Made by a program: the position numbers and the translations under genes
Notes under the pieces: generated by a model
Seen by the model: the letters and a program-made list of their open reading frames with translations, nothing else
The model's database searches: none
What the model was told of the DNA's origin: nothing
Shown here: positions 13,847-18,506 of the stretch, one piece after another
Layout of the letters: each line of letters opens with the position of its first letter
Numbering within the stretch: position 1 is the first letter of the stretch
Assembly: GCA_028288625.1 (NCBI GenBank)
Contig: JAQBNI010000161.1
Location: 1-51,735, forward strand
From: Bacteroidota bacterium
Lineage (GTDB): Bacteria > Bacteroidota > Bacteroidia > Chitinophagales > JADIYW01
Direction of reading: 5' to 3'
Length of the DNA stretch: 51,735 nt

Positions 13847-15631
13847 TTGAGTCCTACAGATATTAAAAATCCGGAATACTTTCATAAGGTCGTAGATTGT
13901 CAATATGCTTGCCCGGCACACACACCGGTTCCGGAATATATCCGATTAATTTCTGAAGAGAAGTATACCGAGGCGTATATGGTAAACTGGAAATCAAATG
14001 TTTTTCCGGGTGTTCTTGGTCGTACGTGCGACCGTCCATGTGAGCCTGCATGCAGGCGTGGCAGAATAGAAGAAGAACCCGTCGCTATCTGCAGGTTAAA
14101 GCGTGTTGCTGCAGATTTCAAAGGTGAAGTAAAACACCTGATGCCAAAAGCTCCAAAGGAAAAGAATGGTAAAAAAATTGCACTGATCGGCGCGGGACCG
14201 GCTTCACTTACTGTTGCGCGCGATCTTGCACCTTTTGGATATGAGATACACTTATACGATAACCAGGAAGTTGGCGGCGGTATGATGCGCAGCCAGATCC
14301 CGTCTTTTCGTTTACCGGGTTCTGTGTTGGATGAAGAAGTAAATTATATTCTCGACATGGATATTCATACTCACTTTAATACACATGTTACGAGTATGAA
14401 GGAGATGATCGCAAAAAATTACGACGCTATTTTTGTCGGGACCGGCGCGCCACGTGGAAAGGATCCTAAAGATCTGCCGGGACGCTGGGATGATCCGGAG
14501 CATGTCCACATTGGGATCGAATGGCTGGCGAGTGTTGCATTCGAACATATCAGTTCCATCGGAAAAAAAGTAATTGTTTTAGGAGGTGGAAATACAGCGA
14601 TGGATTGCTGCCGAACATCAAAACGCCTTGGCGGAGAAAGTGTAACTGTTGTTGTCAGAAGCCCGTTTAAAGAAATGAAAGCTTCACCATGGGAAATTGA
14701 AGATGCGATGCGCGAAGATATTCCTGTCCTGGATTGCATGGTGCCCAAGTCGTTCGTTTCTGAAAATGGCAAATTGAAAGGCATGATGTTTGAAAAAGTT
14801 CATGCTGTATATGATGATAAAGGTAAACGTTCACTTGTGCCAACAGGAGAGCCGGAAATATTTCTTGAAGCTGATGATGTTTTGGTTGCGATCGGTCAGG
14901 AAAATAGTTTTCCGTGGATAGAAAGAGATCTGGGAATTGAATTTGATCAATGGGAAATTCCAACAATTGATAAAGTGACGTTTGCATCAGGCGTACCAAA
15001 TATATTTTTCGGAGGAGATGCTGCACTGGGTCCTAAGAATGTAATTACAGCAGTTGCCCAGGGACATGAAGGAGCTGTTTCCATAGATCTTTTCTGCAAA
15101 GGGCTTGATCTTCACAACCGTCCTGACCCGATGGTAAATATGGTCAGCCAGAAAATGGGTGTGCATGAATGGATGTATGAAAACGCGGTTGTGGATGATG
15201 AACGATATATTGTTCCTCACGCAAATAAACAAAAAGTACTGAAGGACAGGAAAATGGAAGTCGAATTGGGTTTCGATTTGAATACTGCTTTCAAAGAAGC
15301 GCATCGATGCTTGAATTGTGATGTACAAACTGTATTCACGGAATCGCGGTGTATAGAGTGCGATGCCTGCATGGATATTTGTCCCACAAGTTGCATTACG
15401 TTTACTGCCGATGGCGATGAAGAAGATCTGCGCACTCGTTTAAGCGCTCCTGCAAATAACCTCACACAAGACCTCTATGTTTCTTCAAACCTTTCTACAG
15501 GAAGAGTAATGGTGAAAGATGAAGATGTTTGCCTGCATTGCGGCTTATGCGCAGAACGCTGTCCTACATCCGCATGGGACATGCAAAAATTTTTATATCA
15601 AACCACTAACGCCGGGCATTCATGCAAATAG
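13847..15631 (+). CDS. GltD-like FAD/NAD(P) oxidoreductase with C-terminal 2x[4Fe-4S]
   Basis: This 594-residue protein resembles the small subunit of glutamate synthase and the NfnB-type flavoprotein family. The N-terminal cysteine domain has Cys18, Cys22, Cys61, Cys65, Cys69 and Cys82. An FAD site lies at 115-120 ('GAGPAS') and an NAD(P) site at 'VLGGGNTAMDC'; the closing FAD motif is 'FFGGDAALGPKN'. Two ferredoxin clusters follow: 'CIECDACMDICP' from about 502 and 'CLHCGLCAERCP' from about 562. The start is a TTG; no ATG is available before the in-frame stop at 13802-13804, and the protein then begins like its family ('SPTDIKNPE'). Its stop overlaps the next gene by 10 nt. Inferred role: electron-transfer subunit passing electrons between the 2-oxoacid oxidoreductase encoded next and NAD(P)H. 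Confidence 0.88.
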   Translation: MSPTDIKNPEYFHKVVDCQYACPAHTPVPEYIRLISEEKYTEAYMVNWKSNVFPGVLGRTCDRPCEPACRRGRIEEEPVAICRLKRVAADFKGEVKHLMPKAPKEKNGKKIALIGAGPASLTVARDLAPFGYEIHLYDNQEVGGGMMRSQIPSFRLPGSVLDEEVNYILDMDIHTHFNTHVTSMKEMIAKNYDAIFVGTGAPRGKDPKDLPGRWDDPEHVHIGIEWLASVAFEHISSIGKKVIVLGGGNTAMDCCRTSKRLGGESVTVVVRSPFKEMKASPWEIEDAMREDIPVLDCMVPKSFVSENGKLKGMMFEKVHAVYDDKGKRSLVPTGEPEIFLEADDVLVAIGQENSFPWIERDLGIEFDQWEIPTIDKVTFASGVPNIFFGGDAALGPKNVITAVAQGHEGAVSIDLFCKGLDLHNRPDPMVNMVSQKMGVHEWMYENAVVDDERYIVPHANKQKVLKDRKMEVELGFDLNTAFKEAHRCLNCDVQTVFTESRCIECDACMDICPTSCITFTADGDEEDLRTRLSAPANNLTQDLYVSSNLSTGRVMVKDEDVCLHCGLCAERCPTSAWDMQKFLYQTTNAGHSCK

Positions 15632-17457
15632 ATACTTCTATAAATGATTTTGTGATCCGACTCGCAAATGTAAATGGTACCGGTTCTGCCAGTTCTAATA
15701 AGATGTTTGCAAATTCTATTTTTAAGATGGGGATTCCGATGACGGCAAAAAATATTTTTCCTTCAAATATTCAGGGACTTCCAACCTGGTATGAAATACG
15801 TGTAAGTGACAAAAATTATCTCGGAAGGAGAGATGGCATTGATATTATGGTTTGCCTGAATCCGCAAAGCATGGAACAGGATATTGCGAATGTTCGCCCC
15901 GGCGGATATTTTATGTACGACAGTACTAAATTCCTTCAAAAAGATTATATACGCGAAGACATTCATTATCTCGGTGTGCCGATGACAGATCTTTGTAACA
16001 AATCATTTGAAGATCCGCGTTACCGGCAGCTGCTGAAAAATATGGTATACGTTGGAGCTTTGACTGCTCTTTTAAATATCGACCAGGAAGTGGTAAAGGA
16101 AATCATTCACCAGGAGTTTAAGAAAAAAGAAAAACTGATTGCTCCCAATGAGCTTGCTGTAAAACTTGGTGTGGATTATGCGATGCAAAATTTTAAATGT
16201 CCATTACCCATAAGAGTTGAAAAACGTGATCTCATTGGAGATTCTATTGTAATGGATGGAAATACAGCCTGCGGTCTTGGCGCCATTTACGCAGGTGCAA
16301 CAGTCGCCGCATGGTACCCGATCACGCCGTCAACATCTGTTGTAAGCGCTTTTGAAAAATATGCGAATAAACTTCGTACAGACAAAGCAACAGGTGCAAA
16401 AAAGTTTGCCGTTGTCCAGGCTGAAGACGAACTCTCTGCAATTGGAATTGCAATAGGTGCAAACTGGAACGGAGCGCGCGCATTTACATCTACCAGCGGA
16501 CCCGGCTTATCGCTGATGAATGAATTCCTCGGTCTGGCATATTTTGCTGAAGTTCCGGTGGTGTTAATCGATGTGCAGCGCGGCGGACCTTCTACAGGAA
16601 TGCCAACACGAACACAGCAATCCGATATTATCATGGCTGCATATGCATCTCATGGCGATACACGACATGTGTTATTATTTCCATGTAATCCAAAAGAATG
16701 TTTTGAATATACTGCGTATGCTTTCGACCTCGCAGAAAGATTGCAAACGCCCATTATTGTAATGACAGATCTTGACCTCGGAATGAACGAACATCTTTCT
16801 CCTCCTTTAAAATGGGATGATAACAGAAAGTATGACCGTGGAAAAGTTTTAAATGCTGTTGAACTGGAAGCAATTTCAAAGTGGGGAAGATATCTGGACA
16901 TTGATGGAGATGGAATTCCATATCGTACAATACCTGGAACACATCCGACGAGAGGAGCATATTTTACAAGGGGTTCTTCGCATGATGAGTTTGCACGGTA
17001 TACTGAAGACAGCAATGAATATGTAAAAAGTATGGACCGCTTGTTGTTGAAATGGGAAACAGCTAAAGAGCTCGTTTATGCTCCTGAAATTTATAGAAAA
17101 AAAAGTGTAGAATCTGTCGGTCTTATTTTTTACGGGACCACTACTTATGCTGCATTGGAAGCCATGGATCTTTTGCGGGAAGAAGGAATAGAAACCGATG
17201 CGTTACGCATTACGGCATTTCCATTCCGGGATTCCATAAAACAATTTATTGATGAGCATGAAATTCTTTTTGTGATCGAACAAAACCGTGATGCACAAAT
17301 GAAGAAGATCATTACAACAGAACTGGAAATAGATCCGAAGAAACTGCTTTCAGTTTTAAATTACGACGGGTTGCCTGTCAGCGCTACCTTTATCCAGCAA
17401 AGTATTTCTAAAAAATTGAATGAAATTCACCATCCTTTAACTGCTATCAACTCATGA
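15622..17457 (+). CDS. korA: 2-oxoacid:acceptor oxidoreductase, fused gamma-alpha subunit
   Basis: This 611-residue protein has the gamma domain in residues about 1-195 and the alpha (pyrimidine-binding) domain after it, the usual fused arrangement of KorA-type subunits. The alpha domain begins with 'CGLGAIYAGATVAAWYPITPST' split across about residues 214-236 and continues with 'EDELSAIGIAIGANWNG', 'TSTSGPGLSLM' and 'RGGPSTGMPTRTQQSD', all hallmark blocks. With the beta subunit it oxidatively decarboxylates a 2-oxoacid (probably 2-oxoglutarate) with CoA, giving an acyl-CoA and low-potential electrons. It overlaps the upstream flavoprotein gene by 10 nt and the downstream beta gene by 4 nt (ATGA), so the three products are likely made in balance as one complex. 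Substrate identity cannot be fixed from the sequence. Confidence 0.9.
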   Translation: MQIDTSINDFVIRLANVNGTGSASSNKMFANSIFKMGIPMTAKNIFPSNIQGLPTWYEIRVSDKNYLGRRDGIDIMVCLNPQSMEQDIANVRPGGYFMYDSTKFLQKDYIREDIHYLGVPMTDLCNKSFEDPRYRQLLKNMVYVGALTALLNIDQEVVKEIIHQEFKKKEKLIAPNELAVKLGVDYAMQNFKCPLPIRVEKRDLIGDSIVMDGNTACGLGAIYAGATVAAWYPITPSTSVVSAFEKYANKLRTDKATGAKKFAVVQAEDELSAIGIAIGANWNGARAFTSTSGPGLSLMNEFLGLAYFAEVPVVLIDVQRGGPSTGMPTRTQQSDIIMAAYASHGDTRHVLLFPCNPKECFEYTAYAFDLAERLQTPIIVMTDLDLGMNEHLSPPLKWDDNRKYDRGKVLNAVELEAISKWGRYLDIDGDGIPYRTIPGTHPTRGAYFTRGSSHDEFARYTEDSNEYVKSMDRLLLKWETAKELVYAPEIYRKKSVESVGLIFYGTTTYAALEAMDLLREEGIETDALRITAFPFRDSIKQFIDEHEILFVIEQNRDAQMKKIITTELEIDPKKLLSVLNYDGLPVSATFIQQSISKKLNEIHHPLTAINS

Positions 17458-18506
17458 CTTATATAAAACCCAGGTTTCATCACCCGCAGCTTCCCGTTAA
17501 TAAATTAGGATATACCAAGAAAGAATATGAAGGCGTGGTCTCAACTTTATGCAGCGGCTGCGGACACGATTCCATCAGCGCAGCGATTGTACAGGCGTGT
17601 TTTGAAATGAATATACAGCCGCATAAGGTTGCAAAATTATCGGGAATAGGATGTTCTTCAAAAACACCGGCTTATTTTTTAAGCAATTCTCACGGCTTTA
17701 ATTCTGTGCACGGGCGGATGCCTTCCGTTGCGACGGGCGCCGTTCTTGCCAACCGCGATTTGATTTATCTCGGTGTTTCCGGAGACGGCGATAGTGCCTC
17801 AATTGGCATGGGACAATTTGTGCATGCCATAAGGAGAAACCTGAACATGACGTATATCGTAATGAACAACGGTTGTTACGGCTTAACAAAAGGTCAGGAT
17901 TCAGCGACAGCGGATACCGGCTCCATTAACAAATCCGGAATGGCTAACCCATACCAGAATATTGATCTTGCAGGATTGGCGCTTGAATTGGGTGCAAGCT
18001 TTGTTGCGCGCAGTTTTTCAGGAGATAAATCACAGCTCATTCCATTGATCAAAGCTGCAATGTCGCATCATGGGTTTGCATTGATCGACGTGGTTTCGCC
18101 TTGCGTTACTTTTAATAACAATACAGGTTCCACCAAATCCTATGATTATGTTCGCCATCACATGGAAGCCGTTGGCGAATTTGATTATGTTCCATACGAA
18201 AGCGAAATCAAAGTGGAATACAATGAAGGAGAGATGATCAAAGTAGACATGCATGATGGTTCAAAAATTTACCTCCAGAAACTTGGACAGGATTGGGATC
18301 CTTTCAACCGCTATTCCGCGCTCAATAAATTAAATGAATCACGTGTAACCGGAGAGTTACTTACAGGACTTATTTATCTCAACGAAAACAGCAGGGATCT
18401 GCACGACATGAACGGAACGGTGCCGCAGCCTTTAAACAGCCTTTCAGAAACTGATCTTTGCCCGGGCAGCGCTGTGCTGGAAATGATCAATGATGAACAT
18501 AGATAA
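17454..18506 (+). CDS. korB: 2-oxoacid:ferredoxin oxidoreductase beta subunit
   Basis: This 350-residue thiamine-diphosphate subunit has the four cluster cysteines of the family: Cys33 and Cys36 ('CSGCGH'), Cys67 ('GIGCSSK') and Cys217 ('SPCVTFNN'). The ThDP/Mg motif is 'GDGDSASIG' at 110-118 with 'NNGCYGLTKGQ' at 138-148. The C-terminal 100 residues are longer than in minimal KorB proteins. It would bind ThDP and one [4Fe-4S] cluster and accept the electron from the hydroxyalkyl-ThDP intermediate. Its ATG overlaps the alpha-subunit stop. A palindromic terminator follows its stop. Confidence 0.92.
   Translation: MTYIKPRFHHPQLPVNKLGYTKKEYEGVVSTLCSGCGHDSISAAIVQACFEMNIQPHKVAKLSGIGCSSKTPAYFLSNSHGFNSVHGRMPSVATGAVLANRDLIYLGVSGDGDSASIGMGQFVHAIRRNLNMTYIVMNNGCYGLTKGQDSATADTGSINKSGMANPYQNIDLAGLALELGASFVARSFSGDKSQLIPLIKAAMSHHGFALIDVVSPCVTFNNNTGSTKSYDYVRHHMEAVGEFDYVPYESEIKVEYNEGEMIKVDMHDGSKIYLQKLGQDWDPFNRYSALNKLNESRVTGELLTGLIYLNENSRDLHDMNGTVPQPLNSLSETDLCPGSAVLEMINDEHR

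Follow-up and report, generated by a model that had tools for sequence, protein, structure and literature searches.

The DNA analyzed here, a 51,735-nt stretch of a Bacteroidota genome (contig JAQBNI010000161.1; "the window", whose coordinates are used throughout unless a locus is named), carries three overlapping genes encoding a GltD-like flavoprotein (FP, the first gene of the module) and the KorA and KorB subunits of a 2-oxoacid:acceptor oxidoreductase. By sequence, there is good support for the module as a new Bacteroidota member of the 2-oxoglutarate:NADP+ oxidoreductase type of Azoarcus evansii. It is highly probable that FP, KorA and KorB form a complex that couples 2-oxoacid oxidation directly to NAD(P), whichever coenzyme and substrate are used (the NAD+ and other-substrate alternative weighed below included), and the combination of NADP+ with 2-oxoglutarate appears likely, if with less assurance. 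The genes are arranged as follows.

13847..15631, forward strand: FP, flavoprotein subunit of the GltD/NfnL superfamily; TTG start, 594 aa
15248..15628, forward strand: C-terminal part of FP, residues 468-594; a permuted EAxRCLxC arm (C488, C491), then two 4Fe-4S motifs (C502/505/508/512 and C562/565/568/572)
15622..17457, forward strand: korA, alpha subunit of a 2-oxoacid:acceptor oxidoreductase, with the gamma domain fused at its N-terminus, 611 aa
17454..18506, forward strand: korB, thiamine pyrophosphate (TPP)- and 4Fe-4S-binding beta subunit, 350 aa

The reading frames overlap by 10 nt (FP/korA) and 4 nt (korA/korB), and together with Pfam matches they confirm the description given in the original prediction, which had placed a GltD-like FAD/NAD(P) protein with two C-terminal 4Fe-4S motifs at the head of the module. 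FP contains Fer4_20 (residues 17-93), Pyr_redox_2 (110-406) and a Fer4_7 dicluster domain (501-576); KorA has a POR gamma domain (19-184) fused ahead of POR_N (220-385), and KorB matches TPP_enzyme_C (65-213). KorA is the only one of the three subunits named by a curated NCBIfam cut-off (TIGR03710, 573.8 bits, cut-off 482.75); the best models for KorB (TIGR02177, 212.6 bits) and FP (NF009410 'NAD(P)-binding protein', 392.9 bits) scored under their cut-offs of 261.9 and 516, respectively. The best solved relatives are 6n2n for KorA, and 5b48 and 6n2n for KorB. Identification of FP as GltD, the glutamate synthase small subunit, was rejected, as its scores lie far under the corresponding cut-offs (TIGR01316, 256.6 versus 471.75; TIGR01318, 206 versus 482.95; TIGR01317, 166.3 versus 447.7) and FP adjoins korA. 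A separate 463-aa GltD-like frame (G000:C109) shares 31% identity with FP.

We infer complex formation, docking site, electron path and direction of reaction as follows. KorA and KorB would oxidatively decarboxylate 2-oxoglutarate with coenzyme A (CoA) and TPP, placing single electrons onto the 4Fe-4S cluster of KorB. The C-terminal dicluster domain of FP would dock where domain V of pyruvate:ferredoxin oxidoreductase (PFOR), a delta subunit or free ferredoxin would do so in other enzymes, and would accept these electrons and pass them through the further FP clusters and FAD to NADP+. The net reaction would be 2-oxoglutarate + CoA + NADP+ -> succinyl-CoA + CO2 + NADPH, and the enzyme would run beside the SucA-type 2-oxoglutarate dehydrogenase as an NADPH-yielding variant of that step of the tricarboxylic acid (TCA) cycle.

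Relation to the Azoarcus evansii enzyme

In 2003, Ebenau-Jehle, Boll and Fuchs reportedly described a 2-oxoglutarate:NADP+ oxidoreductase (KGOR) of denitrifying A. evansii, with subunits of 63, 62 and 37 kDa from adjacent genes. The enzyme is said to contain FAD, TPP and about 24 Fe, and to be specific for 2-oxoglutarate and NADP+; its flavoprotein reportedly co-purifies as a stoichiometric subunit, and similar adjacent genes are said to occur in Bradyrhizobium japonicum. Of these features, the window's module shows the three adjacent genes and, as judged by sequence, sites for FAD, TPP and several 4Fe-4S clusters.

Azoarcus evansii has since been renamed Aromatoleum evansii, which makes it a congener of A. 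aromaticum. A tblastn comparison of FP with 72,556 plasmid records (E limit 1e-60) matched four of them, three from Variovorax and one from Aromatoleum, and three were compared. Plasmid 2 of Aromatoleum aromaticum EbN1 carries FP, korA and korB with 4-nt overlaps, at 60.8, 58.4 and 61.1% identity over nearly their full lengths, annotated as FAD-dependent oxidoreductase, 2-oxoacid:acceptor oxidoreductase alpha and 2-oxoacid:ferredoxin oxidoreductase beta, and two Variovorax records carry the three genes at 56-66% identity. FP is the probable equivalent of the KGOR flavoprotein subunit, and genes annotated as 2-oxoacid oxidoreductase and 'FAD-dependent oxidoreductase' probably encode one enzyme. 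The central idea of the original prediction, a flavoprotein whose ferredoxin domain replaces the delta subunit in a direct 2-oxoacid:NAD(P) oxidoreductase, corresponds to an enzyme type already known, and what is new is the member in Bacteroidota; no description of the module in Bacteroidota was found in a literature search that reached few subscription journals. The idea gained support from the behavior of the three genes as one evolutionary unit, from no ferredoxin gene having been seen beside them and from the occurrence of the same operon in a congener of A. evansii. In a passage of PMC10134865, the A. evansii KGOR-alpha, with NsoC, is placed in one tree with homologs of GltD, NfnB and DsrL.

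The FP profile (46 sequences) aligns with NfnL (5jca, 5vj7) over residues 18-419 with an E value of 6.4e-85, and a second, weak match pairs FP residues 469-493 with residues 24-48 of NfnL, the N-terminal segment that ends in RCLxC. The cluster arm that is N-terminal in NfnL is found in FP after the core, directly before the ferredoxin domain, and the alignments with structures 9bov, 9n5u and 8oh5 continue through as far as this arm. Nineteen cysteines of FP are invariant in all 46 aligned sequences, as are Cys 33, 36, 67 and 217 of KorB in 42 of 42. Those of FP suggest four 4Fe-4S sites, with ligands tentatively assigned: a putative site 1 (C22/61/65/69), a putative split site (C18, C488, C491 and perhaps C82, whose counterpart is not Cys in NfnL, 9bov, 8oh5 or 9n5u) and two putative ferredoxin-like sites (C502-512 and C562-572). 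FP probably holds, then, more clusters than the two C-terminal ones originally noted. The C-terminal domain matches PFOR domain V (1b0p/1kek) across both motifs, weakly (E 0.0048), and residues 469-581 match TIGR02176 with an E value of 2.9e-7 and 28.7 bits versus a cut-off of 911; the domain V match is compatible with a domain V-like docking role. Homology to PFOR domain V was considered and set aside, the match being weak.

The three genes as an evolutionary unit

In a sample of 60 related genomes, the window's own included, some FP match was found in 43, with bimodal identities. Full-length orthologs are present in 11 genomes (73-100% identity), and the remaining matches over 300 residues share 27-34% identity and are presumably GltD-type proteins; short fragments reach up to 47% over about 55 residues. 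korA adjoins FP in all 11 carriers (62-100% identity, about 0.5 kb away at most, with contig and strand the same), and in one of them, G008, it is cut by the contig end. The original prediction would have failed if korAB occurred mostly without the flavoprotein. This is so for korA homologs at large, which are found in 40 of the 60 genomes against 11 with an FP ortholog, and it is not so within the subfamily of the module, where FP accompanies korA of at least 55% identity in 11 of 12 genomes. The twelfth, G003, has a 133-residue korA fragment (55% identity) at a contig end, and no FP ortholog was found there; in the rest of the 29 genomes that have a korA match and no FP ortholog, the matches share 27-35% identity and by sequence belong to a different subfamily.

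A contig scan confirmed 273 FP relatives, of which the best 80, all at 71-77% identity, were analyzed. These loci are mostly from Bacteroidota, with one Ignavibacteria metagenome-assembled genome (MAG), one 'uncultured bacterium' and Gammaproteobacteria (Halieaceae, Pleionea and others). The gene order flavoprotein-korA-korB, whose conservation the original prediction proposed to check, recurs, with korA in 74 and korB in 66 of these loci; where korA is seen without korB (eight loci), a contig end lies no more than 510 nt from the korA match. As the cysteines are invariant and this order recurs in Bacteroidota and Pseudomonadota, the module is beyond chance.

Six of the 80 loci have no korA. 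In two (L093, L113) the contig ends within 90 nt of FP, and in four (L072, L084, L123, L132) it does not. A genome-wide search for korA was made for these six and for L069, where korA lies 3.7 kb off, and revealed a module-type copy (65-66% identity) in six of the seven; of the four loci distant from contig ends, three are in genomes that keep module-type korA elsewhere. Module-type korB was found in four of five genomes searched (G062, 68%; G063, 70%; G272, 72%; G224, 52%; the fifth being G060). In G062 (L123) each of the three genes has a contig of its own, and in G063 (L132) they are spread over at least two. A stop codon listed in korA of G063 was discounted, since on rereading the gene has 600 codons without a stop, and it is probably the gene's own end. 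Within a phylum sample of 395 genomes, FP at 56% identity or more occurs in 10, the window's own included, and korA adjoins FP or its C-terminal piece in nine of these; the FP copy of G272 is split over two contigs, and in G224 (G224:C16) korAB, at 51-52% identity, lies about 12 kb from FP on the same strand. That the genes are kept even where they are no longer linked is, of all the evidence in this analysis, the strongest for a shared function.

Trees of the 41 shared loci were rooted, by choice, on the rows from beta-proteobacteria. In them, changes of label (beta, gamma, Bacteroidota-or-other) numbered two for FP and two for KorA, in both cases the minimum possible, and three for KorB. Correlations between distance matrices were 0.74 (FP-KorA), 0.80 (FP-KorB) and 0.87 (KorA-KorB), with none of 2000 permutations as high in each case, and fit joint inheritance.

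The aligned start codon of FP is TTG in 45 of 80 orthologs, GTG in 18, ATG in 16 and CTC in one, where ATG is the preceding codon. The 45 orthologs with TTG at this alignment position make the TTG start in the window plausible. Among the 63 orthologs that start with TTG or GTG, an in-frame upstream ATG is present in only two, and korB, in contrast to FP, starts with ATG in 66 of 66. Selection for stoichiometry perhaps favors weak initiation of FP.

Electron acceptor, coenzyme and substrate

The delta subunit that the original prediction had noted as missing was not seen elsewhere either: no separate dicluster ferredoxin (delta) gene was seen beside korAB in the 80 loci by motif pattern, which irregular motifs would escape and which meets many loci cut by contig ends. 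Among 685 frames of at least 90 aa, those with the pattern CxxCxxCxxxC are 78 copies of FP and a single 433-aa protein (L074), and a six-frame scan for two such motifs, FP excluded, returned this L074 protein alone. FP is also the sole Fer4_7 match on the contig of the window.

Apart from FP, korA and korB, no neighbor family occurs in more than 17 of the 80 loci, although not every family was identified; those that were are a response regulator, a short-chain dehydrogenase/reductase (SDR) family and PntA, and the remainder come mostly from Halieaceae loci. A larger conserved operon was thus rejected, such neighbors as recur being lineage-specific. The same result bears on flavin-based bifurcation, which the original prediction had entertained and in which an NfnL-like FAD would divide electrons between two acceptors, one of high and one of low potential. 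FP is indeed homologous to the bifurcating NfnL subunit, with the E value given above; however, no recurring partner gene lies beside the module in the 80 loci, where three families were identified and no search for NfnS was made in the genome. The 2-oxoacid donor couple lies at about -0.5 V and NADP+ at -0.32 V, far enough apart that bifurcation is unneeded, and we consider it very improbable.

Proton-translocating NAD(P) transhydrogenase genes were found within 6 kb of the module in five of the 80 loci, perhaps from three lineages, and PntA is named by NCBIfam in one. They lie upstream or downstream of the module and have two sequence forms (coordinates are those of each locus):

L068, 2893-5870: transhydrogenase genes
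L087, 10842-13778: transhydrogenase genes
L105, 10882-13785: transhydrogenase genes
L127, 12575-13696: transhydrogenase genes
L128, 8907-10028: transhydrogenase genes

pntB is present in all 11 carriers (as a fragment in G008) versus 34 of the 49 other relatives, with a one-sided Fisher p of 0.03 that is uncorrected for kinship. Together, proximity and co-occurrence are a weak hint at NADP(H).

SDR-family genes forming one loose similarity cluster occur in 11 of the 80 loci, at varying places and on varying strands, for example:

L097, 4136-4909: SDR-family gene; best match 2,4-dienoyl-CoA reductase, under the model cut-off
L115, 5046-5807: SDR-family gene
L065, 12762-13529: SDR-family gene

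In Aromatoleum, acyl-CoA dehydrogenase genes lie upstream of the module. A link of the module to fatty-acid oxidation is possible. In the window itself, a BrxA/BrxB family bacilliredoxin gene (TIGR04191; 18551-18964, reverse strand) is convergent with korB.

Coenzyme and substrate were assigned by homology. In FP, R271 and K278 are invariant, and where the NfnL 'YRR' has its second Arg, 45 of 46 sequences have Ser; these residues are compatible with NADP(H). In KorB, K70 and L144, which align with K49 and L123 of the Sulfolobus tokodaii enzyme, are invariant in 42 of 42. The S. tokodaii residues shape substrate choice, and the enzymes accept both pyruvate and 2-oxoglutarate, according to a passage of PMC5020499. 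A further position, S. tokodaii D468, was discarded as a guide to substrate because it does not discriminate: the aligned residue is S452 in the window's protein and Leu in 6n2n.

A rival reading is the same complex working with NAD+ as coenzyme, or with another 2-oxoacid, such as pyruvate or a branched-chain one, as substrate. Phenylglyoxylate:NAD+ oxidoreductase is a known 2-oxoacid:NAD oxidoreductase for comparison. Such an enzyme would account for the evidence of only R271 and K278 among NADP-type contacts, and for invariant KorB residues whose S. tokodaii counterparts belong to enzymes using both pyruvate and 2-oxoglutarate (PMC5020499, same passage). On the other hand, the closest characterized relative by gene order and genus is called a 2-oxoglutarate:NADP+ oxidoreductase and is reportedly specific for both, and the best solved relative of KorA is 6n2n, which we take to be the Magnetococcus 2-oxoglutarate oxidoreductase (OGOR); we thus regard this variant as rather unlikely.

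Several observations weigh against the direct NADP-linked complex. One genome (G060, locus L072), a MAG of about 760 contigs, has FP, no korA match and a korB match of only 35%, and the distance correlations may arise from shared ancestry or species history alone. NADP-type contacts of FP are, by sequence, only partly recognizable, and many other ferredoxins match single motifs of its C-terminal domain better than PFOR domain V does. In AlphaFold models, the mean predicted local distance difference test score was 70 for FP (43-row alignment) and 49 for the C-terminal part (19 rows), lowest in the Fe-S segments. No transhydrogenase gene was found in eight further stretches scanned, among them the window. 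Lastly, Fer4_7 is matched ten times in the window's genome, and one match, a frame of 115 aa, is by appearance a free dicluster ferredoxin, which would be compatible with a ferredoxin route.

In that route KorAB would use free ferredoxin as usual, and FP would be a separate, co-transcribed ferredoxin:NADP+ oxidoreductase. The 115-aa frame and the resemblance of FP to NfnL speak for it, as does M. tuberculosis KorAB, which works without such a subunit and whose extracts showed no NAD+ or NADP+ reduction in a passage of PMC2773412. Against this, FP has a dicluster domain of its own, whose motif cysteines are all conserved throughout the 46 sequences. The A. evansii flavoprotein, moreover, is said to co-purify stoichiometrically. 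We consider this arrangement improbable, and a direct complex of FP, KorA and KorB the better account.

Metabolic setting and comparison with known systems

The genome of the window has sucA, and KorA is its sole POR_N protein over the family cut-off. The original prediction had proposed a comparison with the presence of sucAB: a sucA match is present in 10 of the 11 carriers, over the cut-off in nine and partial and under it in G008, with none in G043; among all 60 relatives some match is found in 58, over the cut-off in 49. Replacement of sucAB by the module was hence rejected as a rule, and since most carriers have sucA, the module usually occurs in addition to 2-oxoglutarate dehydrogenase. 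The carrier without a sucA match, G043 (93% complete), has the module and a second korA at 32% identity.

The enzyme type is patchy in Bacteroidota (11 of the 60 relatives, 10 of the 395-genome phylum sample) and present in some Gammaproteobacteria. A three-subunit NADP-linked 2-oxoglutarate oxidoreductase is known from anaerobic aromatic degradation. These Bacteroidota and Halieaceae live aerobically. It is a speculative and not very likely extension that a second, NADPH-making 2-oxoglutarate step beside the NADH-making dehydrogenase could render TCA output switchable in these oxygen-living organisms, and, with a transhydrogenase nearby, could even run in reverse as NADPH-driven CO2 fixation in an aerobe. 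A redundant NADPH-yielding TCA step could be tested for in Runella, Emticicia and Parahaliea, all of which include named strains that carry the module.

The module is reminiscent above all of the A. evansii KGOR, with which it shares a GltD-superfamily flavoprotein, KorA and KorB from adjacent genes, the congener operon being 58-61% identical; unlike it, the module is known here from genes alone, occurs in Bacteroidota mostly together with sucA, and has no visible link to aromatic-ring reduction. Magnetococcus marinus OGOR (6n2n/6n2o) and M. tuberculosis KorAB likewise combine a gamma-fused KorA with a KorB carrying one 4Fe-4S cluster, but are described as two-subunit enzymes; the Magnetococcus enzyme is named KorAB OGOR in a passage of PMC11304471. 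NfnL (5jca, 5vj7) agrees with FP in its FAD/NAD(P) core and in its N-terminal Fe-S domain (E about 1e-85), whereas in FP the arm lies at residues 469-493 and not at the N-terminus, an extra C-terminal dicluster domain is present, and no NfnS-like partner recurs. Formate-dehydrogenase-type chains and NfnA (9bov, 8oh5, 9n5u) show the same succession of a GltD core and an EAxRCLxC-like arm, but are chains of 963-1178 residues with other partners, in which the position of C82 is Ala (9bov, 8oh5) or Arg (9n5u). Finally, in PFOR (1b0p/1kek) domain V is part of the catalytic chain and not, as with the putative docking domain here, of a flavoprotein.

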